Shown here in pieces: positions 1-48,259 of a stretch of DNA of 64,000 nucleotides. Made by a program: the position numbers and the translations under genes. The stretch is from Clavelina lepadiformis (Eukaryota > Chordata > Ascidiacea > Aplousobranchia > Clavelinidae): NCBI RefSeq assembly GCF_947623445.1, contig NC_135246.1, forward strand, positions 15,049,856 to 15,113,855, in the 5' to 3' direction. Within the stretch, counting starts at the first letter, position 1. The number at the start of each line of letters is the position of its first letter. The notes below the pieces were generated by a model. The model was not told the DNA's origin and did no database searches. It saw only the letters and a list, made by a program, of their open reading frames with translations.

Positions 1-1324
1 AATCCAGCCACTAATAGAATTGTCTTCTTTAAAGGTATGTACACAAACGTCATTGTAAGATGTAAGTAAATGTAATGATTATATGCTGCACGTTTAGTTA
101 CTACCAATGAATACTTCCAACCCTGTTGGGTATTCATTTTCTGCAGATACCTGATTATTTTGGCCATAATTTGTCACGTTGTAATATGCTGATTTTGTTA
201 TATTTCATTTTTAGTAATTCAAACTACGTATATGCTGTTTAGATTACCAATATTGGGAATACGACGGCACCACTTTACTTCCTGGTTCACCACGGCACGT
301 CCGCTTTCTGGGGTTGCAAAATGACCACGTTGGCGCCGCCGTGTGGTGGGAACGAAATGGCAAAACCTACTTTTTCCAGAGTGAGTGTTCTGACGCTATT
401 GTTTGACTGCGTTGATATTCCAAGTTATGATATTGTATATAGGTACTGCAGTGATAGGCAAAACCCATAACGGATATCTGAAAAAATATTATAGTTTAAA
501 ATGAAAATAGACACATGACAATATATAAATCATATATTGAATGACGGTGATAGTTTTCTGTATTCCAGAAAGAGTTAATAATCGCTATAGATTTTGTAAT
601 GCTTGTGTCTGTTAAACTGTGAAACAAATTTTAAAGCAAATTCCTTGATTAGATGAGAATTATTGGAGATTCTCCGGAGACAAAGTGGAATCGGATTATC
701 CGAAACGTATCGATGTTTGGAAGGGAGTTCCCGCCAATGTTGATGCTGCTTTCTCCGGTGTCAGTCGAGACGGTAAGTGATATACAGGTCAAACAAACAA
801 CTGTGTTACGTGTCTCGTGATAAAAAGTTAACCCAGTTGACCAAGTTTATCATATGTTTTCCGTACAACTTAATTTACAAGATTTTATTTTAACCACAGG
901 TCGCAATCACACTTATTTCGTGAAAGGGAACAGATACTGGACCTTCCACAATTATGACATCAGAGTTGTATCCGGACCTCAATCTTTCAGGAGGGACTGG
1001 CTGGGATGCGGCTCCGTGGGAGACGATTTCGATAAAGACGACGCCTCTGACGAGTACAACTCAACCTCCGTCGGAGCGATCGTCGGAGTGTGCGCAGTGG
1101 CGGTTATCCTGATAATAGCCGCCGTTATGTACATTGTCCGGCGTCGACAGAGAGCAGAGAAACAAAATCCAAGAACCGTAGCAGTTGCCTCTCCCACGGT
1201 ACCCTACGCCCAGGGTTACTCGAAAGGGTTGCCACCCCACACGACTGGGGGAAAAACTATGTGCGTGACGGCAGCCCAGCAGAAACTACGGCGGTTTCAC
1301 TTCTCCCTGCAACCCAGGGTTTGA
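1..1324 (+). CDS. Membrane-type matrix metalloproteinase, C-terminal part (hemopexin repeats, membrane span, tail)
   Basis: Partial gene; the prodomain and catalytic domain lie before the window. Exons read: 1-34, 243-380, 653-772 and 900-1324, all joined in phase 1. They encode hemopexin blades: an aromatic-rich DYQYWEYDG start, an NYWRFSGDKV blade with VDAAFSGV, and a last blade RNHTYFVKGNRYWTF. The cysteine in DWLGCGS is the usual hemopexin-closing cysteine. An acidic stalk with an N-glycosylation site (NST) follows, then a membrane span of about 23 residues (VGAIVGVCAVAVILIIAAV) and a basic stop-transfer RRRQR. This order is that of the transmembrane MT-MMPs (MMP14/15/16/24 group), which cleave pericellular matrix and activate other MMPs. 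The tail is about 50 residues, longer than the roughly 20 of the vertebrate proteins, but like them it ends in valine (PRV). The tail region is clearly more GC-rich than its surroundings. The orthologue within the group cannot be settled from this fragment. Confidence 0.9.
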
Positions 1325-7884: not shown

Positions 7885-9597
7885 ATGGCGAACGTCGGAA
7901 ATGACGAAGTTATTTGTCCAATTTGTTTGGAAATGTTAAAGAAACCTATTCGCATGCTCTCATGTGGTCACAATCTGTGTCAAGTTTGTTTGGAAAGTCT
8001 TGTTGCTAATTCCGTTTACTTTTACAATGCAAGGTTTGTCGTTACACTTGTTTATTTCAGTATAACCAATTTGATGACTTAAGTGCAACAAATAACAAAT
8101 CGAAACCAATCAAAGAAGTTATGGTTTTAGTTTTTGAAAAAAATGAATCGTAATTTTTTCTATAGGTGCCCAGCTTGCCGGACACATATAGGCGTATCTT
8201 TGAACTCAAAGGGAGTAGAAAGCATACCACGCAACCGTACTGTTGAAAATCTTATGGAAAAAATGGCATTAAATAAAAAGGTACGAAATCTGGGACATAA
8301 AGGAACGCGATATATTTGCTTTTATGAAAACGTGTTCATTGAAATAGGTTTCAGTACCAGGCATTTCTTCAATGTCAGATGTCCAGTTGACCACTCAGGA
8401 GCTCATTCACATGGAGAGTAAGTTTATGCCTTTTTGAGACTCATTCTTGCCTCGTCCTATTAGGACCATCAAAGATTGTTTAAGTTTAAGGTCTTAGGGA
8501 CCAAACCAATTTCTTTTAGTTCATACAAAAAACCTGCAAAACATTAACTACCACTCTGCTAATAAGTAAGTTTACAGAAAAAAGCTTGCGTCTTAAATTT
8601 CAGCTTTCATGTTGTTGCAGGTGTCGCGTTGAACGACAAAAGTCATAGAAGGTTTGATGACGCAATCTACATGTTGCAACGCATTATTTGTTCTGTAAAA
8701 AGTTATCACAGGGTCAAGTACATGATTTATTTGCTGGAATGTCTCCAGGAAACAAATGCACTTGACATGGCTGAAGCAGTTTGTAAGGATTTGTCCAATT
8801 TGTTAGAGACAAACCATTTAACGCTTGAAGCAAAGGAAGTTTGTGGTGATTGTGTAAATGATTTATACAATCTATCCAAATCATTTATTGCCAAGAATTA
8901 CAAAATATCTATTCATATAGCTTCTCATTTATTTAAATTTGTTTCAACATTTTACAATGGACGTGAAAATCTCAGTCGACTAGAAGATATTTCTCATTGC
9001 CTGAAAATAATCTCCAAGGAAATGAGTCGCAAAAACAAAGCTGACGAGTTTTGTGAACAACTTCCATTCATAGAAGAGCTAATTGATGAGATGGTCAAGC
9101 AAAGTAATTGTGAAGTTAAAGAGAAAGTCTTAACATTGGCATCTGTGCTTTTAAACTTAAGTGTTTGTTGCAATGAAACTGAAATATTTGTTCGAGCAAT
9201 TGAATTTTCATCACAAGGTATTGGAAATATGAAAACATTTTTTGGCAAATCAGCCAATCTTTATGACGTTTTAGGATCACTTTATTACAATCTTGGCGTC
9301 GCTTATCGTGGTATAAATCAGTTACATGAAGCAAACAGATATTTTTTGCTTGCTGAAAACAACAAGAAATCTGCCATTAACAGGACGCGTTCACTTCGCT
9401 TGCTTCAAGCGCCTTCTTCAAACCAAAATGTTTCTAGCGCGCGTATTTCAAGTCCACCTCGCCCTCTACCTCGTCGTTACAATAATTTCACTACTTCTCT
9501 CTCTTCAATCAGTGATTCTACTCCTGGTCTTTCTTATCGTTCAAGTCTTTTAAGAAACTATCTTCCTCGTCCTCCTTCTAGTCATGTTCCCACCTAA
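7885..9597 (+). CDS. RING finger-TPR protein, copy A
   Basis: Exons 7885-8033, 8166-8280, 8348-8417 and 8621-9597 join in phases 2, 0 and 1 to give 436 residues. The ATG at 7885 (MANVGNDEV) is used; no earlier ATG is in frame. The RING finger is C-terminal to a very short lead: CPIC, then CGHNLCQVC, then CPAC after the first intron, with the full C3HC4 spacing, so a ubiquitin E3 ligase role is expected. No B-box or coiled coil follows. The large last exon is helical and ends in TPR-like repeats (YYNLGVAYRGINQLHEANRY fits the N-LG-AY...A..F TPR pattern), then a Ser/Pro/Arg-rich tail (RPLPRR). TPRs usually bind partner peptides, so a substrate-recruiting E3 is inferred. A paralogue with the same exon structure begins at 13167. 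Candidate AATAAA at 9863-9868. Confidence 0.85.
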
Positions 9598-13166: not shown

Positions 13167-14718
13167 ATGAGCTCTAGCACGTCTAGTATGGATGGTGACG
13201 AAGTTACTTGTCCAATTTGTTTGGAAATGTTAAAGAAACCTATTCGCATGCTCTCATGTGGTCACAATCTGTGTCAAGTTTGTTTGGAAAGTCTTTGTGC
13301 AAGCTTTTCCTCTAATTTGAAGTTTGTTCAAACACTTATGTTTGCTTTAACTTCACAGTAGACACCTAACAACCAAAAATGGAAATCATTTACAGCGAAG
13401 TACTTTTGAAAACGTTGTTTGCAAAAACAACGTAGATGTCGTTTTGTTTCAGGTGCCCGACATGTCGTACAAGCATATCCCTGGGACCGAACGGAGTAGA
13501 AAGCATACCACGCAATCGTACGGTTGAAAACCTTATAGAAAGGCTATCATTAAGTAACATGGTATGATAGTTTCAACAAGTAACACGTTGATTTGTCTGT
13601 GCTTACACTCGAGAAACATTTTCCAGTCTCAAAGCCCTGTTATTTTGTAAGCCCTCAGGTCCAAGTATTTCTGTAGCATCGGCTGCCCAGCTTACCAGCC
13701 AAGAACTACTTCATATGGAAGGTCGGTCAATATCTAACAAATACCATTTACATGGACTTGGCGAAAGTGATCATAAAATAAAATGTTTGCTTCTATTCTA
13801 CTTTGTTTTACTCTTTTCACTTTGCGACGCTTACTCTTACATTTGCATTGTATATAAAGCTTATGTGAAATAATTTCAGGCGTGGCGCTAAGAGACAAAA
13901 ATGAGAAAAGATACGATGACGCAATATACATGCTGCAACGCATCATTCTTTCTGTGGAAAACTACTACAAAGTTAAGTACATGATACATTTACTAGAATG
14001 TCTCTTGGAAAAAAATGCACTGGATGTGGCAGAAAAGGTCGGTATGGATATGACAGTAATCGTAGAATCTGAATATTTTACGTCAGAAGCAAAAGAAGTT
14101 TGTGGAAAATTGCAGAGTACCTTGTTCAACCAGGCAAAGTCATTTGTGGAAAAAAATTATAAGATATCTATTCTTTTAATTCGATGTTTGTTTACATTTG
14201 GCACAAAACTTTATGATAGCGAAATGAGAGTTAACAAACTTTACGATATTTCAATTATATTAACGGCAATAGCAAAAAAAATCAGGCACATCCAAAATTT
14301 TAATGAGTTTCATGGCCAACTACCATTTATGGAAAAGCTTGTTGATGAAATTACAAAGCAAAACGATTGTAGCTTTAAGCATAAAGCTATAAAGTTGGCT
14401 TTTACGTTTTTAAATTTTAGCTCATGCTGCAACGCCACAAAATTATTTAATCGAGCAATTGAGTTTTCATCACAAGGTATTGGAAATATGAAATTAATGT
14501 TTGGAGATTCAGCTAAAAATTATCGCGTTTACGGTTCGCTCTATCACAATCTTGGAGTCGCTTACCGTGACATGAACCAACTGTTAGATGCGCAAAGAGC
14601 TTATTTACTTGCTCAAGAATTCAAAGAAAATGCAACTGACTGGATAAACAATGAAAGCAAGCAAAACAGCAAGTCTGGCACAAACAATGCTTTAGCTTCC
14701 GTACAAACTATAGGTTAG
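13167..14718 (+). CDS. RING finger-TPR protein, copy B
   Basis: Exons 13167-13321, 13453-13561, 13652-13721 and 13880-14718 give 390 residues. Intron phases (2, 0, 1) match copy A, and exon 3 is 70 bases long in both. The RING has CPIC, CGHNLCQVC and CPTC. A conserved link ends QLTSQELLHMEG, compared with QLTTQELIHME in copy A. The helical/TPR part is diverged but alignable (RYDDAIYMLQRII; IEFSSQGIGNMK; YHNLGVAYRDMNQ). It lacks the Ser/Pro/Arg-rich tail of copy A and ends soon after the last TPR. The RING exon is almost identical in DNA sequence to that of copy A over 99 bases. A ubiquitin-ligase role is inferred from the RING. Confidence 0.85.
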
Positions 14719-18341: not shown

Positions 18342-21300
18342 CTACTGGTATTTATGTCTGTGGTATTTTTTCAATATGCCTAACAGCCCACCGCACAACG
18401 CCCCAATAACCAAACCGGCAAATCCTCCAAATTGTCCAAAGATTTGTCCTATGCTCATGCCTATTTCTGCGCCTGATAAAGCACCACTGATCCCAGATAT
18501 AACCGTTTTTGAAACAGTTGTAATTTTTCTGACCACAGCCATACTTTGTTTTTTCTGTTAAAAAAAATTTTTGTACAGCTGTTTCGAAACATCTTAGTTA
18601 ATAATTTCTCGGGTAACAGTATACAAAAAATTATGGTTTCTTTTTAATGAAACACGTGTTTTAGAAGAAGTTAAAAAGTGATTTACTTTTCAAGAAAGAT
18701 TAAACAAACATACGGTTTTATGATTGCTTAATGATATTTCAAAGTATCAATGCTATATGGAATGGAGTTGGTAATCAGTCTTACAGTTACCTTATTTCTT
18801 TTATTTCTTTGCAGAACTTCTTTGAAATGGAGTTGAATTCCGTTTTCCAATTCATTGTAAACTCTATGGAAGTCACGTGCAATAGCATACGAGTAAGACT
18901 CGTCTAACCATTTTAGTGCTGTAGATTTCGCCTCGTCATGCATTGAATGCAGATGCTTCTTTTTAATGTATTGATTTTCTACCTAAAACAAACTTTTAAG
19001 TTGAGCATTGTGAGAACATGCTTCATCAAACATGTAGAGCAAGTTTTTTGATAGTTAGGTAAAAGTAACTTGCAAAAACCTTATTACACAGCTTGATCGT
19101 AGTGCCCTATACTTTAAAAAAATGTAACAAAATAGGCAGGTGTGACCTATCATAAGCCTATATCTACCAATGTGTGTTAAGATTTCTGACATAAGTCTGG
19201 AATATCTTGAAAAAACTTTTGTAACTGTTATAGTGAAATGTTTGCATACGGAAAACTACAAAAGCTAGCTGACTTTGGTTTGTTGGGTAATGCTAAACAA
19301 GTTACCTCATTCATTTTATTTTGGTAGTACTCCTGTCCCTCCAGAGCGCGACGAAGCAAGTCACATTGTTTCAATATCTATACATAAAACATATATAATA
19401 TAGCCTACACGCCTTATGGGTGAAATTTGATTATCGGTAGGGGTGACATCGTATCAAAGGTTCGCTATGATCAGTTTAATTGTTAGGGTTTGAGTCAACT
19501 TGTTGTCAACATAAAAGATTTATTCTGTTGCATAGTAAAATTAAGCAAAGCATTTTTACCATTTCTAATTTTTCTGACAGATGTCTCAGGCAAGCCAAAG
19601 ACATGCCACTTTCCATTTCACCTTGAATTTGTTTGAAATTTGCTGATATTCCGTTTGTGTAAGATCTAGCAAACCATTCAAGAGCGGGTGACTCGTCGAA
19701 TATTCTTTGAATTTGTTGAACGTAGGAACGTACCTACGTATAGATAAAGTTTAAGCAAATAAGTATGAGAAAGCTTACACGATACCTTGAAAAGCTAATA
19801 ACGTTTTGGAATTTGGTAAAGATTTTATTACGGTAAATTCCTAAACATTGTCCGTTTTGAAGGTAGCTACAAAGCCTATATGTGTTGGCGTTCTTGCCAA
19901 ACGCCAAAAGTGGAACTTGTATAAGGGTGTTTTTTGTTCGAGATTCCGTGGGATGAGCAAAGGATGAAAAGTATTAACTGATATCGGCATACGATTTTTA
20001 GTTTAATTTAACCTTCATATTTACACATGTTTAGTATTTTATAAAACGACGTACATATGCTGACATCCGTTATTGTCTTAACTACATGTATGAAGGTGCT
20101 CTGATCTACAGTAAAATGTAAACTTTCGGACTATATATATTAAATTTCCTTTCAAACATCGCCCAGTCTAAATGAAATAACTGGTAACTAACACTTTACC
20201 GGTATTTAGCCTTCGTCTTGACTTGCGCCATTCATGAGGAAAAGCACCTAATAGATTGTGAGGTGGGGTAATGTTTGAAACGGTTTGGTAGTGAAAAATA
20301 TCTTATGTTAATAATTCGTTTCTATAATAATTACAAAAGTGTTAGGAAGTGATCCGTCGACCTCTATACAAACAAAAACAGTCACAAAGCAACCCCAAGG
20401 AAACAAAATTTACAAAATCAAAACACAAATCCATTTCTGACATCTATTTGTAGTGAACTGCGATCAATATAAAAAAAAATATACAAAGAATATCAAGTTT
20501 TTGTTAGTTCATTTAAAGTTTTAAACGCTCATGCTGGTCACCTTTTTTTCTTCATTTCTTTGCAGAATTTGTCGCAAACAAAATTTGATTTCATTTTCCA
20601 GTTCATCTTTAATTCCATTAAAGTCGACACTTATTTCATTTGAGTAACACCCGTCAAAAGTTTGATGTGCAATTGACCTCCACAGGATATGATAGTCTGT
20701 TAGCTGAGTGTCGTTAATTGACCTCTTTTCTATACCCTGTTGAGCATTTTTAAGTTAAAATCGTTGATGCAATTTTTTCGAGTGACTGATTGTTTGCAAA
20801 CCGAAATACGCAAATACATTACGCAGCTTCTTTAAACTGCTAAAAGTTACCTCATTCATATTTCTTTTGTAGATCTGTAGTGCTACCGCTTTAAGTGTCC
20901 GAGCTTGACGCAACAAAGTTATTTTCTGTGAAGATTTATAATAATTTAGTTCATTATTTTTGAAAGTATAATCGTTGCCTGGAAAAAATGAAATGAAAAT
21001 ACTTATAAAAAACTGTGCAAAAACTATGTTCTTTCATTTAAAGCATGAGTTATAGCGCTTTTCGGAATAAAGTGCTGTATACTTAGTTTAACACATACCA
21101 AAATATACAGTAATTATTTTATCACTTTCCATTTTGGCACTGTCCTACTAACATGATACACAAACCTTATTAGTGTGCATGGTCCAGCTGGATGAATAGA
21201 ACGAAAAGTGTTATCGTGTCACGAGAATATCTTTACGCACTTGTTTTAAGAAGCACTGTATTTTAATGTTATATAATCCAATTTTAAGGCACTAGTTTGT

Positions 21301-23581
21301 GGTGTAGTTTGTTATTGCGTAGTAATATTTTACAATCTTGGTTACAATCGATACTAATTGGTTACAATAAATTGAACGAAAAGTGTAATCGTACAGGTTA
21401 GTGAGAAAGAAATACATCGAAACCCGTTTTTATCTGATAACCTGAGGTCGATCCGCTGCAGAGTAATTAAAACCGGCACGGAATGTAGATATAGTAATCA
21501 TTGCACTTGGTGACTATACATGCAGTATAGTATATAAGCATAAGGAAACGTCACAGCAGTAAAGTTTGTGTTAAAAACCTTGTGTTTTCCGACACTTTAA
21601 CGTACTGATAAGCCTTTACCCGTTGCTGCAAACTCATTATTTATACGTTTTAAGCTCAAATTACATCACTTAACATTTTGTGGTGATCGATTTTCCTCAG
21701 ACAGGGTAGAGCAATTTGCCCCCAGCTGGAGAGCGCAGTTCAAAACAGAAAGCTAATAAGCGTTTTGAAACTTGTAAAAAACCTTTTTTAGCAGAATAAT
21801 ATATCTATATATACGTACAAATTTTCAATTTATGATGTGAACACTAATCTAAACAAGTCTGCAGTAAACGTATAAAGTTTTAGCTGTGTTATGTTATACC
21901 TGTAAACAGCGCTATACAGGCTATGTTGCATGTGCTTTTTGTACGCGTTTCCGTGACATATTTTTCCTCCTTTGAGGACCAACTGCGCCACCTACTTTTC
22001 GGTTATTTCTGTGTAAACCAGTAACTGATGCTGTGTCTTCAAATCACTGCCCGATTTAGTCTAAACATGTAGTCAGCCTTACTTGACAGTTGCTTTCGTT
22101 TCTTCGTTGAACCTCTTGATAATAGCAATTAATATCTTTTTCCAATCCTTGCCGAATTCTGTGAAAATCCCCTGACATCTCTTCAGAATATACTTCGGCA
22201 AACCTGTTCAGCGCTTGCGTTTTTGCTCTAAGGTGCATGAAATGAAGTCGATTTTCTTCGATATAATTATTCTCTATCTAAGTTATAAGACATAAAGTGT
22301 TTTTGTGAAAACATTGTAATCGGAATACTGTCAAATCAGTTTTTCATATTAGGCCAACTAATAGTGACATCCTTCTATACACACTTTTTACTTATAGTTG
22401 CTTAAATGTGTACTCGATACATAACTTTAATTTATCAACAGCGTATGTTGCAAGTCGAACATTAATCTATCAGCAGAACTTTTTACCTTGTCCATCTCGT
22501 TTTCGTAAAGCTCTTTTGCGTGTCGTTTTTTATGTAGTATTTCCTCCACAAACGTTTGCCTCTGTCAACAGGCAATAATGTAACTATAAGATTTTTTAAT
22601 GTTCCTGGTTGTTTTTTAAACAATTTATCATATAAAGTCTTCTACTTACATAACTTTGAAAAAAATAATGGTTATTTGTATAAACACTTATGAACAAGTT
22701 TTTCTTAAAAAGATAACAGACCAACAAATAAGGTTATGTAGGTTCTGGACTTGGTTAAAAGTATTGTGATCCATGGCTCTACTTTTGGTTTTACTTTAGA
22801 TTAGATGTAAAACAATAGAATAATGGGATGTGTTGTATTTCATAGAAAAGTTTCAACGAGAGATATAACCTCTTTACTGAACAAATAGCATCTGCACAAG
22901 AACTGTTAAAATCTTGCAAATATCTTTAAAGCTTGACTTATCTTTGCATAAAACAGTAATAACTGCAAAACCCTTTTTGTTCAAAGCTGCAGTGTATATA
23001 AAGGTCATTCTAAACGCTACCGTATTGGTTGGTTTCCATTGGACCAGCTGCTTTCCGTTTTGCTGGTTTTGGGTGTAACAGTTAGGCGAAATCGAAGGTA
23101 AATAAAACTCTTCAAATCTTCTATGTGTGCCAGTGGGTGATCTGTAGTTTCGTTGGTCACCAGTCTGGACCCGTGGTTGCCCAGGTGGTCTCGGAAGGTA
23201 TCGACCGCTATACTGCTAATGACAGTTTATAAATATAGTTCAATATTAAGGAATGAAAAATTGAAAACATTAATATTATACAGTTTTCATAAGAACCTAG
23301 TGTGTAGTCTAAATGTTTAACAAATGACTAATAATTCTACTGTATGAAAACATTTTGACACATCTTATCTGATACCAAAAGGAAAAAAATTGAGGAGCTT
23401 TTTTCCAAATATTAAAACTCAAATACACCTAAAAACATACCTTAAGCTGTTATTAAGCGGAAATACTTATAGCTTATGATTTTACATCAATGAACAATAT
23501 GCAACAACATATAATCAAAAGAAAGAATAATAATTTTAGGTAGCAGATAACATTTATTTAAGCAAATACCTTTTTGTCCAT
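18342..23581 (-). CDS. Modular helical protein with C-terminal glycine zipper (atlastin/GBP middle-domain-like), long paralogue
   Basis: Exons in transcript order: 23570-23581 (MDKK), 23021-23212, 22487-22561, 22083-22277, 20851-20925, 20542-20736, 19560-19733, 19306-19377, 18791-18982, 18342-18554. All joins are phase 0 and every exon is a multiple of three; about 464 residues. An Arg/Pro/Gln-rich N-terminus (YLPRPPGQPRVQ) is followed by exon pairs: a 24-25-residue helix ending (Y)xxxMxE/K, then a 58-65-residue helical exon with the pattern ALxxF...DFHRI...LExxI...RNxxK. This resembles the three-helix-bundle middle domain of atlastins and GBPs, but no GTPase G motifs are present in the exons read. 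The last exon is a Gly-spaced hydrophobic segment (GALSGAEIGMSIGQIFGQFG), a glycine zipper sitting where atlastins carry their membrane hairpin. A membrane-associated scaffold is inferred. The nearest relative is the gene at 25322-27063. Confidence 0.7.
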
Positions 23582-23879
23582 TTTTGTGAAGTGAAAGAAC
23601 TCTTTTTGCTTGTATTACAGGTTTCTCATAGCAAGACGCCAATTTATTAATAACAGAATAATTTACTTACGCTGAAATAAATTTAGAATAGTCTGAATAA
23701 GTACACAAAGAATCACGTTCATATATAAGTTATATTTATTCAATTGCTAACTAACTATCTTATTAGTCGTATTCCACTCGGCGTTGTGGGTTCACATTTC
23801 AAATTTTGTAAAATTGTTCAGCCGGTGATATTATTCCGTTCATGGTGTTACCGGCGCCCATCTCTAAAACTAGTCAAAA

Positions 23880-24571
23880 CTAACCGACAGATATGACGCA
23901 ATTATAACATCTTTCCGCAATTTCCTCATGTTTTGCTCCAAGCGAATGCATTCCTCTGTAAAATACTTGTACCGCAAATTGCCAAAATTTACTCCTGGCA
24001 TCTTGGTCTATAGCAGGGATGTCCAACCTGCGGCCTACCTGAGATTTTTGTGCGGCCCGCTAGTCATTTTCACTCCAAGTAGTATTTTGAACTTTGAATC
24101 TTAGCCTAATTAAAATGTACCAGTCAGCTCTTTATGTACCCATTTTTCTTGAAATTTAATAGGTTCTGCGGCCCAATGAATTATTTCAAGTGACAATACG
24201 GCCCACTATAATAAAAGGTTGGACATCCCTGGTCTATAGCATTGTCTTGTACTGCCTTCACGATGCGTTCACCTCGTTTACAATTGCGCAATATTTGTTA
24301 TGTCATAAAGATATTTTGTGAATATAGGTAAGGTAATTATTTCACTGGGGACTTTTCCTTACTACGTCCCATCCAGTTCTTTTGGTCCATCAATTATAGG
24401 TTTCCTCAATCCATTGTGTCTATATATAGCGCCTACAGACCCCACACCAAGGTACCTTTTTACAAAAGACGTAAAATGATCGTTTACAAACACAATGCTG
24501 TGTCGGAAGGTATGTATAAGGCGTACCATTGGTTTCAAATAGGGCCTTAGCTTAAATAATAGGAGCGTCAA
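23880..24571 (-). pseudogene. Remnant of an unidentified coding sequence interrupted by a hAT MITE
   Basis: On the minus strand, 24362-24571 is open and protein-like (FVKRYLGVGSVGAIYRHNG). Downstream, the frames on either side of the MITE at 24014-24231 also look coding, with helical, charged composition (KFWQFAVQVFYRGMHSLGAK near 23930-24000). A stop ends the first segment. I do not recognise the family, and it is not obviously related to the flanking modular genes. It could be a dead gene or a transposon fragment. Confidence 0.35.
24014..24231. mobile_element. hAT-type MITE (218 bp)
   Basis: Perfect inverted ends CAGGGATGTCCAACC / GGTTGGACATCCCTG and an exact 8-bp duplication GTCTATAG (24006-24013 and 24232-24239). 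Internal TGCGGCCC / GCGGCCCA motifs near both ends are typical of this widespread animal hAT MITE type. The intact duplication and ends suggest recent insertion compared with the other elements here. Confidence 0.9.
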
Positions 24572-25321
24572 TGGTTAAAACATCTAAGGAATTTCTCAAG
24601 TTATACTTTTAGTAATGTTTGTTGTGAAATTATTAACGTGCATAAGTCTCAAATGTGTATGGAAGTATTCAACTGCTTCATTCTAACAATTATCCCGTTT
24701 GACTTTATCTTCTGTTTTTTTCAGCTTTGAATAACATCACAGATCACTTTAAACAACTATAAATTATAATATTTGTAAAAACACTGTATCGGTATACTTC
24801 AACAGCGCGTGCAACACTTCATCAACTTCAACATTCATCAACAATTTTACAACCCGGCCCTGATTTTAACTTACTTTTTACATTAACAAACATACAGCAC
24901 CTTCACATGTTCCGCATTACAGATGTGAGACGCAAGTATAATAGCTTATACCGGTTAAAAACTGAATGTATTGACTGCATCTTATTCAAGAACAGAAAAA
25001 GTATAGGTGCCAACGTTAGTCAATTAAACTGATCAATTAAACTCATCAAACTTTGACTGTAAAAGTAAAAAATGTTTTGCGAAACGTGTGTTGAATGCAA
25101 AAGCTTTGTTCATTAAGAATTTATTTCCTATGAAAAAGGAAATCGTGTTTGTTTAAATGCAATAGAAGTGCTGCAATAAATTCAAAATTTCTAGTCAACA
25201 ACCAAACATAAGAACATGTCACAACACACGTATATGCTGGCTTAAAACAATTGACAGAAAAAAAAAGAATTCACAGTTGTAGTATAAAAATGTTCCACTT
25301 AATCGTATGTAGTAGAACATT

Positions 25322-27063
25322 TCATTTCCCCATTTTTTTCGCTACTTTCCATAATCCACCAACTGCTCCACCTATGACCATACCAACAACAGGATTTCCG
25401 ATCCAACACCCTAGTTCTGCGCCTATTTCTGCCCCAGCCAACGCTCCACTCGCACCGCTTTTTACCACGCTTAGAGTTGATGGTGTTTTGGTTGGGTGAT
25501 TCTCGTAAATATTTCGACTTTCCCAATTCTTCTTTTAGAATTTTACATGGAACATAAAAGGATTATTGGTTAATTCTTATTCACCGACAAAGTAGAATGT
25601 TTTGAATTTTTCTTCGATTTACTTTTTAGTCTTACTTTGTTTCTTTGATTTCTTTCTTGAACTTTTCGGTAATGGTAGTTGACGTCGCTTTCCAACCCGC
25701 ATTTAATTCTGTGATAATCTTCCGCAATCTGCCAAGAATATGCTTTGGCGATCCAGTTTAGTGCTTGTTGTTTTACTCTAAGGTGATTGAAGTGAAGTCT
25801 TCTTTCTTCAATAAAGTCGAAATATGCCTAAAATAGCATTCAAGAAAGCTGTTTGTGAAAGGTTTCCTCTCGGAAGCCGGATCGAGTAACTGGACAAAAT
25901 TTTATGCAATTTCTTTCAAACTATTTAGTACACCATTATGCCCAAACTAACCTAAACTTTTAATATTTTATCCAAAAAGTCTCAAAATTATTAACAAATC
26001 GAAATTTTTGCGCTGCTACAGTTATTGTGCGGTAGAATCCAGTATAATTATATAGTTAAAATGTGCTTTTCTCATTGTGAAATGAGACGCACTCATCAAA
26101 TTAATATATAACGTAAACTTTTCAAGATATGGTATCTTTTGGATTCTGATTGCATTGTTTATATTGTGCCTATATCTGATTTTACGACTTGTCATTTATC
26201 ATCAGCACGCGTACATCGCAAAAGCTCATAAGCCTTCTGATTTCTGTAAGTGTTACCTCATCCATTTCGTCTTGGTAAAATTGTTTTGCTTGACATCTCT
26301 TTTCCAAAAGTTCCTGCAGTAAAGCTTGATTCTGTAACACGAATGCAAAAATTTTGGCTATACAGTAATATAGGCTAAGTCGCAATCTTTCAACGGTTTG
26401 GGTATTTTTTCTAAAGCTACCGACATCACATTAACCATAAGTTGAATGAAGTTGATCATGATGAAGTTGATGAACCATAAGTTGTTGATCTTAGTACAGT
26501 ATAAGTACAAAATAATACCGCATTGACTTGATGCAATTCCTGATGGCCGTACGGATTGGGAGAAATCGACGGTAAAAAGAGTTCTTCTCTTGAAAATATA
26601 ATTCTTTGTGATCTGTTGTTTCGCTGAGGACCATTCTGCACCCGTGGAAACTCGGGTGGCCTCGGATTGTATCCACGATAATACTGTTCAAAAGGATGCA
26701 CCATAAATTATTTCACTGATAAAGGAGTATCTTATATGCTGGTGTTTTTAACATTATCAATGTCAAGTCATTACTGAAACGTCAGCTAGTTATATAAACA
26801 ATGAACAAACGATAATCTTGACGTAATACAATGAACTAGCTGTTCAAGTCAGAAATACGCAAACCTTTGGAAAAACAAGGTTAAAGTTTAAAAAAATTAA
26901 CAAAGCAATAAAGCTGCTCAACTTTTCATTTCTGTACCATGCAGGTGCACAGTTATACAACATCAGTTTTCAAAATATGGCAAAACATCGACAAAAAATA
27001 AGTTTCAATATGTGAAAAAGTATAATATTATTGAAATAAGTATAGTATAAATACCCTGTCCAT
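25322..27063 (-). CDS. Modular helical protein with C-terminal glycine zipper, short paralogue
   Basis: Exons in transcript order: 27055-27063 (MDR), 26519-26683, 26257-26331, 25636-25827, 25322-25501. All are multiples of three and joined in phase 0, giving 206 residues. The layout matches the paralogue at 18342-23581: a tiny first exon, an Arg/Pro-rich second exon (YNPRPPEFPRVQ, ending with the shared motif LPSISPN), then one pair of helical exons (25 + 64 residues; MDE end, ALNWIAKAYSW, YHRIKCGLESDV, RNQRNK) and a glycine-zipper exon (GALAGAEIGAELG... GMVIGGAVGGL). It thus carries a single helical module where the neighbour has several. No GTPase domain. The start follows AAAAAA and is supported by the parallel MDKK exon of the paralogue. 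Function unknown; membrane association is inferred from the zipper. Confidence 0.7.
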
Positions 27064-28640
27064 TTTTTTGGCAAAGTTGTTGGTCGCTTTTTGTTTGAAG
27101 AATAATTGCAGCAGCTATACCTGAAGGTTTTCAAAATGATTCAGATCTATATATTTAATAAACACAACCTCCTTTTATGTTCAATTGGTTCACCTCCTAT
27201 GACAAAAAAATAATATCCTCCAGAAAACCTGTCATCTATATTGAGTCAATGAAATACATTCTCACCTACATTAAAAGCTGATCGCTACATTGTCACATTT
27301 CATCCAGCGTATATTTACCGGCAATGTATTCCTTTTTAACCTTTTCGAAATGCCCGCTTTACATACTGTGCAACCTCAGTGTCTTGTCTCAGTGTTCTTT
27401 ATGTAAGGTATTTAGTGGATACAAGAGAGGTAATTCTGCCGTGGGTCTTACCCTTTCTTCCCCATTTCTGGCTATCTTTCGTTCCACCCTTTCTTTCATC
27501 GTTGTCGGTATTTATCAAATGGATTACAAGCACACTATGTACAAAGAGTCAACGACCTACACTACAGTTCCTCTGTCCAAAAGAAACAAAAGGATCATTT
27601 ACATGCACGGCTTGTGACAGAGGGCGTTTCCGAGGTGCGTCGTAGATGTACGATCGAGTACGTGAATATTGTATTGTACGTACATGCTGTACGTAGGCTA
27701 CAATGCGAATACCCAATATGTTTTGTCTTTTTGTTTTCAAACCGTTGTTTGTGAGGCGTTTCGTGAGTATTTTTGATCTCTACTACGACTATCTTTAGGA
27801 GCTCGATCCTGGGATCAAATAGCAGAAGGGTTTTAACTATACGTTTTTTTTGTATTTAAATGGATCTTGTTGGTGCAGAGGCTGGTATCCGTCTTCTTGC
27901 GGTATATGCTGGAGAACTGGTCGAGGTGTTGATTATTCATTTTTCTTTTCGCATCAAAACATCTACAAAAAGAATTTGGCCATTGCGCTCTGATGCTTTG
28001 ATCTAAATGTGGTCAGTTGAATCGGAGCAGGAGAAGTGAATAATTGTTTCTCTAGGCATTTATATCGGTCATTAAATTTTGATTTCCGCATTTGATAACG
28101 AGCTCCAGAAGGAAAGTATGACAATTATACGCTTTCGCATAGAAAAACTTTGTCAAAAGATATTTTGAGTCTATTGGGCAATTTCAGTAATCGCATCTTA
28201 GAATGCGTTATCTTTAAATCTACGACATGTGATTTCCCTTTTGGTAGGATGTCTCACAAACTCGTTCATAAACTAGCGCTGCGGTGCTGTACAGTTTGAA
28301 GAAATATTTATCCAAAAAAATATAATTATTTTCCCAGAACTCCAGGTCGTTGCTTCTTTACGAGCAAGCTTCATTCTTGCGTACATTTAAAAGCGCGTGA
28401 ATTAAATGCATGTTATTAACGGCTAATGCAAAACGTAACAATGCAACATATAATGTCAGAATTGTACCACAGCTTTTATATGATAAATGGAATAAGCATT
28501 GTGTTGATATATGCCTAAGGGATAGGCTTTCCTTTACGCGATGTTGAAAAATCTACCCTTTCTTTGTTCTAAAAACAAAATGTCATAAGGTTATGCCTAT
28601 GTGGATCTTTCATATACGCTCAGACGATATTCTACTGAAC
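27064..28640. other. Intergenic stretch, no gene seen
   Basis: Upstream of the short modular gene and downstream of the first PMP22/claudin-like gene. Plus-strand frames at 27324-27645 overlap each other and lack domain, codon or splice support. Nothing else is recognised. Confidence 0.4.
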
Positions 28641-47184: not shown

Positions 47185-48259
47185 ATGAGGCAATGGATCT
47201 CATCACTGGTCTATCTTTACTTCATGCAATTTTCATTGTGCAGTGTTACAGCAGATCTCGACCCTGTCGATTTGGAACTGCTGGAAATGCAGGTCACCAA
47301 GCTGGAAGGATTAGTAAGCAACTTGACAGAGATAATCAGTAGCGAATACGAGGAATGTCAGTGTAATGAAACCTTAAGCAGTATCAAAGCACAACTTTCG
47401 CTGCACGGGATTTCCTTAGATAACAGCTCTCGTGACGACATTGTCGAACACACTACATCACCTGTCGACGAGGAATATTGGCGAGAGCAAACGAAGACAA
47501 AATACGAAGGTTGGTTACCTATAATTTAATGTTACGTAAAATACGCGCGCTAAAATAGATAGGTTAACCCTCCTTGTTATGAGGTTAAGTGCGATTAATT
47601 GTAGCCCATCTATATTTAAACGGCACGTTCGCTGGCACATAAATAATACTTCTGTTGAAGATTGCCAAAACATCTACCGCGATGGTTTCCAAGAGAGCGG
47701 AGTTTACCAAATCTGGATGGTTGATCTATTCAATCTTTATCCAATTTATTGCGACATGGATGTCGGCGAAAACAAAGGCTGGATGACCTTTTTCCGAAGA
47801 TATGACGGCTCAACATCATTCAGCCAGGACCAAGCAACATATGACGTTGGGTTTGGCATACCTACCCAGGAATTTTGGATCGGTAATGAAAATCTTTACG
47901 CCTTGGCAAGGAACGAGTTTTCATCGCGGGACGACACCGCGCGACTTCGAGTCGATTTGGCAGACGAATCAGGTGAAAGGTTCTACGCCGAATACGCTCA
48001 TTTCAGCCTGGGAACTAGAAAGCAAGGTTACCAGATTACTGATGTGTCAGGATATTCTGGTGACGCGGGAGACGGCCTTTCACAGTTTTTAAATAACCGT
48101 TTTATTGTGTGTGGCTCTTTCGGTGGTTGGTGGTGGGATTCGTGCGGTAGCTCATTGTCCAGTTTAAACGGAAATATCAGTGAGTTGGTTTGGCCAGGAT
48201 CGCCTAAGCGTTATCGCTCAGCTTCCATGAAAATTCAGCGATTTCCGAAAAGCACATAA
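47185..48259 (+). CDS. Secreted fibrinogen-related protein (FReD lectin type)
   Basis: Exons 47185-47513 and 47605-48259, joined in phase 2, give 327 residues. The signal peptide is MRQWISSLVYLYFMQFSLCS. A short heptad-like stalk (LELLEMQVTKLEGLVSNLTE), with N-glycosylation sites and a CQC pair, can trimerise the molecule. The fibrinogen C-terminal domain starts near VEDCQNIYRDGFQESGVYQI, with the first disulfide to YCDMD. It continues with GWMTFFRRYDGSTSFSQ, FWIGNENLYAL and a second disulfide CGSFGGWWWDSC, and ends in YRSASMKI. The final part is shorter than in ficolins: the usual NLNG(x)Y loop reads SLNGNISELVWPG. Such proteins bind acetylated sugars or other ligands in innate immunity or act as signalling ligands (tenascin/angiopoietin relatives); the role here is unknown. 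A well-formed single-intron gene. Confidence 0.9.

Follow-up and report, generated by a model that had tools for sequence, protein, structure and literature searches.

Proteins of the atlastin and GBP families are known to be GTPases, and the locus described here raises the question of what two neighbouring ascidian genes might encode, whose repeated exons appear to resemble the helical bundle of these proteins and beside which no GTPase was found. We analysed a 64-kb stretch of DNA (C7:15049856-15113855; hereafter the window), and genome-wide searches covered the 209,060,895 bases in 95 contigs of the same genome. Our data suggest, with a probability of roughly 60%, that the two genes, referred to as S and L, are intact, GTPase-less and likely membrane-held offshoots of a GBP-like multi-bundle family, which would serve as non-catalytic partners, tethers or dampers of their GTPase-bearing paralogs.

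Both genes lie on the minus strand and their exons were read from the sequence, giving 5 exons and 216 aa for S (27063-25322) and 10 exons and 464 aa for L (23581-18342). Exon 1 of S (27055..27063) carries the start codon and encodes MDR (ATG GAC AGG, then GTATTT), and its counterpart in L (23570..23581) encodes MDKK. Exon 2 encodes a proline/arginine-rich N-terminal part in both genes, with 55 codons in S (26519..26683; AG and GT at its ends, phase 0) and 64 codons in L (23021..23212). In S a single module follows, composed of a short exon (26257..26331, 25 codons) and a long exon (25636..25827, 64 codons), which according to the alignment with atlastin would encode the first helix and the remainder of a bundle, respectively. 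On the basis of the exon reading and the module tree (see below) L has three such modules: module 1 (short exon 22487..22561, 25 codons; long exon 22083..22277, 65 codons), module 2 (20851..20925, 25 codons; 20542..20736, 65 codons and motif-diverged) and module 3 (19306..19377, 24 codons; 18791..18982, 64 codons). In addition, L has an unpaired exon of the long type (19560..19733, 58 codons), which is the most diverged. The last exon, at 25322..25531 in S and 18342..18554 in L, encodes a glycine-zipper segment and the stop codon. All 15 exons have a length that is a multiple of three, with AG acceptors, GT donors and chosen internal boundaries in phase 0, and the paired exons comprise 24-25 (short) and 64-65 (long) codons. 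The first-pass annotation had described exons of this kind separated by phase 0 introns, as well as a recurring exon pair, and our reading recovered both, including the four pairs and the unpaired 58-codon exon.

Among themselves, the long exons of the four pairs give tblastn matches at E 1.9e-19 to 0.001. The unpaired exon matches three of these long exons (E 1e-4 to 0.16), with no tblastn match at E<=1 to 20542-20736; a profile built from the four window pairs, in which the unpaired exon is absent, recovers it at E 2.3e-5, and outside these exons gave nothing below E 1.9. It had also been stated that each long exon keeps the order AL-aromatic, D(F/Y)HRI, LExxI and RNxxK; this order is broken in two of the five, since 20542-20736 has AHQTF and DFNGI at the motif positions, and 19560-19733 has NFKQI and MESGM and is without RNxxK. 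On the gene strand of the window, open stretches bounded by AG and GT number 8 at 192 bases (vs 1-5 at other lengths), 14 at 72 bases and 22 at 75 bases (neighbouring lengths 14-24), and because there is no excess at the short sizes the exon limits rest on homology, between S and L and with their relatives, and not on splice dinucleotides.

Exon 2 of S is 57% identical to exon 2 of L over 46 aa (E 1.3e-9), and the DNA upstream of S (27405..27603, minus strand) shows two short, collinear and weak matches (E 0.008 and 0.094) to the DNA upstream of L (24308-24488), which may represent a shared promoter. With the S protein as query, at least 8 matches at E<=1 were obtained genome-wide, all within S and L; the L protein gave at least 13, of which 12 are in S and L and one, marginal, is on C9 (E 0.57; query 53-121, overlapping the end of exon 2), and the long exon 18791-18982 gave at least six, five in S and L and one on C8 (E 0.75), all three counts being lower bounds. 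Judged by these genome-wide sequence searches, S and L have only each other as close relatives. There is also a short element (24004-24241) upstream of L, whose inverted ends measure 26 nt (85%) and which, by eye, is flanked by an 8-bp repeat (CTATAGAC on the minus strand); from its features we take it to be a hAT-type MITE.

More distant relatives do carry a GTPase. The GTPase model PF02263 gave 101 exon-level matches genome-wide, and when the four-pair window profile was searched against 7136 six-frame ORFs from 28 PF02263-bearing loci, exons from two C6 genes of the GBP-like type ranked first (E 6.3e-6 and 3e-5), and the atlastin of this genome matched at E 0.004. The latter gene (L001, C7:12755278-12759078, minus strand) combines a GTPase, a bundle and membrane segments in a single open frame of 564 codons. 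A strand control drew on 23 loci, namely L001, the 20 loci of greater length and two segments that lie downstream of the C6 genes; of the seven short loci excluded, all but L004 overlap longer ones. The control's 6968 ORFs comprised 3206 on the GTPase strand, 3451 on the opposite strand and 311 in a locus where both strands carry genes, and the corresponding numbers of matches were 23, 1 and 3 at E<=1 and 41, 8 and 3 at E<=10; these matches are not independent because many of the loci are tandem paralogs.

The two GBP-like C6 genes, A (L044/L024) and B (L045/L025), have GTPase matches followed by six pairs of short and long exons on the same strand, according to exon models made by inspection. 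All six short exons of A have 24 codons (the second being a candidate), and its long exons one to five have 64-65. Five of the short exons of B likewise have 24 codons, and for the remaining one, the second, there are candidates of 23, 25 and 26 codons. Long exons one to five of B have 64-68 codons, the boundary of the second being provisional, as the chosen limit is without a GT end. The final long exon continues into a glycine-rich end, in one exon, in both genes. Open AG..GT stretches number 22 at 72 bases and 8 at 195 bases in A (6 and 1 on the other strand), which is a clear excess, and 16 and 4 in B (11 and 1 on the other strand, but 4 at 192 bases there), where the excess is slight. Since only phase-0 boundaries were sought in the relatives, an equal phase in these genes is consistent with the data. 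At least five such long exons are present in a third GTPase-bearing gene of the GBP-like type on C6, and a phase-0 scan of 16 loci found long exons at >=15 bits in 13, with five in L041. As the GTPase-bearing relatives thus repeat the exon pair, the tandem pair belongs to a wider family. GBP-like GTPase gene clusters are present on C2, C3, C4, C6 and C9 (L023-L042), several with tandem bundle exons, and we read these clusters as a family expansion in the ascidian.

In a tree of 18 modules (five from the window, 12 from A and B, and atlastin), a branch with support 92/97, just below the starred threshold, separates the five window modules and both module-5 rows from the rest, and the 58-codon exon is placed on a long branch. 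All four paired window modules score best with the module-5 profile, and the unpaired exon matches no module profile. At E<=0.01 the window profile found six of the 12 modules in A and B, and module 2 of A and of B gave no match (E 22 and 54); a profile-profile comparison of the window pairs with 11 of the 12 modules gave 97.2% and E 3.6e-11. We regard S and L as very probably kin to the GBP-like family, as far as sequence can tell. The proposal that these genes grew by module duplication needs correcting, given the six tandem pairs and the glycine-rich end of the GTPase-bearing genes A and B. Because both features also occur in GTPase-bearing genes, the modular build appears at least partly inherited, not invented in S and L, and we favour descent of S and L from GTPase-bearing family members, in that direction.

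The last exons of S and L, each called a glycine zipper in the first-pass annotation, are 41% identical and glycine-rich. They match Pfam glycine-zipper models weakly (best E 1.6e-4), in all cases below the curated cut-off. The predicted fold of the S last exon has helices at 19-44 and 47-66 (block pLDDT 75-89 from residue 21, <60 before) and is consistent with a helical hairpin, a structure that the L last exon would share by its likeness to that of S. S and L would probably be membrane-anchored by their last exon. After helix 47-66 there are three residues in S and, by eye, about ten at the corresponding place in L, with no C-terminal amphipathic helix of the atlastin kind. Among ORFs, the last exons are matched best by the final exon of gene B (E 0.04), then by one elsewhere on the opposite strand (E 0.34), and the glycine-rich ends of S and L and of A and B are, by eye, of like composition.

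Taken together, we propose that S and L stem from a GBP-like family in which the GTPase-bearing members have a stalk built from atlastin-type three-helix bundles in tandem and a glycine-rich end, one short exon of approximately 24 codons and one long exon of 64-68 codons encoding each bundle. S would have kept one bundle unit and L three to four, both together with the glycine-rich hairpin, and the short proline/arginine-rich N-terminal part would stand where the GTPase would otherwise be. The hairpin would seat the proteins in the membrane and their bundles may pair with GTPase-bearing paralogs or with themselves; by analogy, S and L might then take a non-catalytic part in GTP-driven assembly, as its partner, tether or damper. 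With bundles and hairpin and no GTPase, S and L could not drive the atlastin cycle alone, and a GTPase-free protein of this type might join or poison the assemblies of its paralogs, serve as a passive membrane tether or affect membranes through its hairpin. The module is shared with many GTPase-bearing paralogs, for which reason we lean towards a partner or damper role; we offer it tentatively, by analogy, as a possibility that falls short of even odds. More speculative is a two-part system, in which GTPase proteins with up to six bundles would co-assemble with separate GTPase-free, membrane-anchored bundle proteins as adaptors or decoys, such that stalk and motor would be separate genes.

Among the alternatives, the one that fares best, although we consider it rather unlikely, is that S and L are autonomous membrane effectors or shapers, the glycine-zipper hairpin of which inserts into membranes (of a pathogen or an organelle) while the bundles only oligomerise and no GTPase partner is involved. 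The weak glycine-zipper matches, the two helices predicted for the S last exon and the different number of bundles in S and L are all in keeping with such proteins; the kin family, however, combines the bundles with a GTPase.

S and L could also be the 3' ends of larger GTPase-bearing genes with missed 5' exons, considering that the local GBP-like genes have GTPase matches in several exons located kilobases upstream of the last bundle. We find this improbable. None of the 101 genome-wide PF02263 matches falls within the 64-kb window, and three local GTPase exon profiles, which detected 22, 33 and 24 ORFs at E<0.01 in the GBP-like loci from which they were built, reached only E 0.11, 1.4 and 8 in the window. 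Moreover, S and L each have their own matching ATG exon and matching N-terminal exon; exon 2 of neither gene matched the GBP-like loci at E<=1, and elsewhere in the genome the S copy of this exon had no match at E<=1 and the L copy only the marginal one on C9. The GBP_C model (PF02841) did not match the S or L protein, which is a weak and uninformative test in this genome because its sole genome-wide match is below the cut-off and located at the atlastin gene. Hence, the earlier statement that no GTPase lies beside S and L agrees with both searches of the window. It had been left open whether the GTPase was lost or never present; its absence holds within the 64 kb, and "never had" is less likely than loss or partial gene duplication, because the exon pair and the glycine-rich end occur in GTPase-bearing genes.

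An uneven number of modules, an unpaired exon and loss of the motifs in two of the five long exons might be expected if S and L were decaying fragments of GBP-like genes, but this is very improbable considering that no frame or splice break was detected in any of the 15 exons and that the two paralogs differ less at nonsynonymous than at synonymous sites. Over 208 aligned codons pS is 0.62 and pN 0.34 (pN/pS 0.55, bootstrap 95% 0.44-0.70), and the corresponding dS of 1.31 and dN of 0.46 give a dN/dS of about 0.35, a ratio that is rough because synonymous change is large, yet below one. Purifying selection on the S and L proteins is the best reading of these values.

How the modules relate to atlastin was addressed using a profile of the four window pairs only, which was searched against 177,635 distinct PDB sequences. 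This gave 12 matches, of which 11 are atlastin rows and one is a Dps protein (E 0.086). The atlastin rows comprise atlastin-3 (E 2.1e-5), a chain named Atlastin (E 0.0025) and nine atlastin-1 variants (E 0.021 to 0.11), and thus represent three different proteins. The best match covers residues 333-415 of the atlastin-3 chain, over the three-helix bundle, and the reversed profile, used as control, gave four matches, none of them to an atlastin (best E 0.018). A profile made from A and B, with 11 of their 12 modules, matched 24 sequences, the top 11 being atlastins (atlastin-3, E 3.4e-14). A phmmer search with the S protein found nothing in the PDB at E<=10, though the window profile matched atlastins, and in Pfam no GBP or atlastin model matched the whole S and L proteins at E<=10 (weak matches below cut-off, glycine-zipper best) or the 11 GBP-like modules at E<=1 (scattered weak matches). 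Folded on its own by AlphaFold, using an alignment to the other four long exons, the long exon of S is predicted as one helix (residues 2-63, pLDDT 93, pTM 0.47) without a helix-turn-helix, the exon being modelled without a packing partner. Generic helix similarity is the least probable explanation, for while helical sequences match many helical chains, the isolated exon folds as a single helix and ten of the 11 atlastin rows are at E 0.0025 to 0.11, 11 of the 12 matches are atlastins at the same place with none in the reversed control, and the module occurs in tandem beside GTPase exons on the same strand in the same genome. The proposed resemblance of the window modules to the atlastin/GBP helical bundle is accordingly supported at the level of sequence profiles.

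In atlastin, binding of GTP causes the GTPase domains to pair and the bundles to rearrange, which draws membranes together, as outlined in PMC12312388. S and L share with the atlastins (ATL1-3, Drosophila ATL) the three-helix bundle, as judged from sequence profiles, and, after it, an element predicted to form two helices; they differ in that no GTPase was found in the 64 kb, in having one to four bundles instead of one, and in ending with a glycine-zipper hairpin and a short tail, where the same source describes two TM segments and an amphipathic helix for atlastin. With the GBP-like genes at C6:7.76-7.77 Mb, 7.80-7.81 Mb and 7.17-7.18 Mb they share tandem short and long exons of similar size (24 and 64-68 codons in the C6 genes) and, with the first two and judged by composition, a glycine-rich end, which in those two is in one exon with the last bundle and in S and L in a separate exon; the C6 genes differ in their five to six bundle units and in having matches to the GTPase, of which none was found in the 64 kb. 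Sey1p has several bundles. Like S and L, Sey1p and RHD3 have a long helical region, there located between GTPase and membrane segments and in RHD3 described as "much longer" than the atlastin bundle (PMC3866526); they have a GTPase, however, and are absent from the PDB matches of both the window profile and the profile of A and B. To vertebrate GBPs the kinship runs via the PF02263-bearing relatives, and S and L differ from these proteins in that no GTPase was found in the 64 kb, nor a GBP_C match or a CaaX end in the two proteins.

Titles and abstract openings in the open-access literature announce neither ascidian GBP-like genes with tandem bundles nor natural genes with bundles and no GTPase, and PMC13265298 deals with an engineered truncation. 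The role of GBP-like proteins in invertebrates is called still unclear in PMC9005921. If our reading is true, S and L would illustrate that a stalk can be amplified by exon-pair duplication and work without its motor; they would provide a means to ask what the bundle does alone, which bears on the function of the GBP-like proteins of invertebrates.

Finally, the window contains other features apart from S and L. Two open frames on the plus strand (8566-9597 and 13858-14718) look paralogous by eye, the second being weakly TPR-like, below cut-offs, and just upstream of the first there is, by eye, a RING-like frame (8131-8421). A hemopexin repeat (824-1324, plus strand; E 1.3e-6, above cut-off) is followed by a likely membrane segment, and an exon encoding a fibrinogen C-terminal domain is located at 47540-48259 (plus strand; E 9.7e-31).
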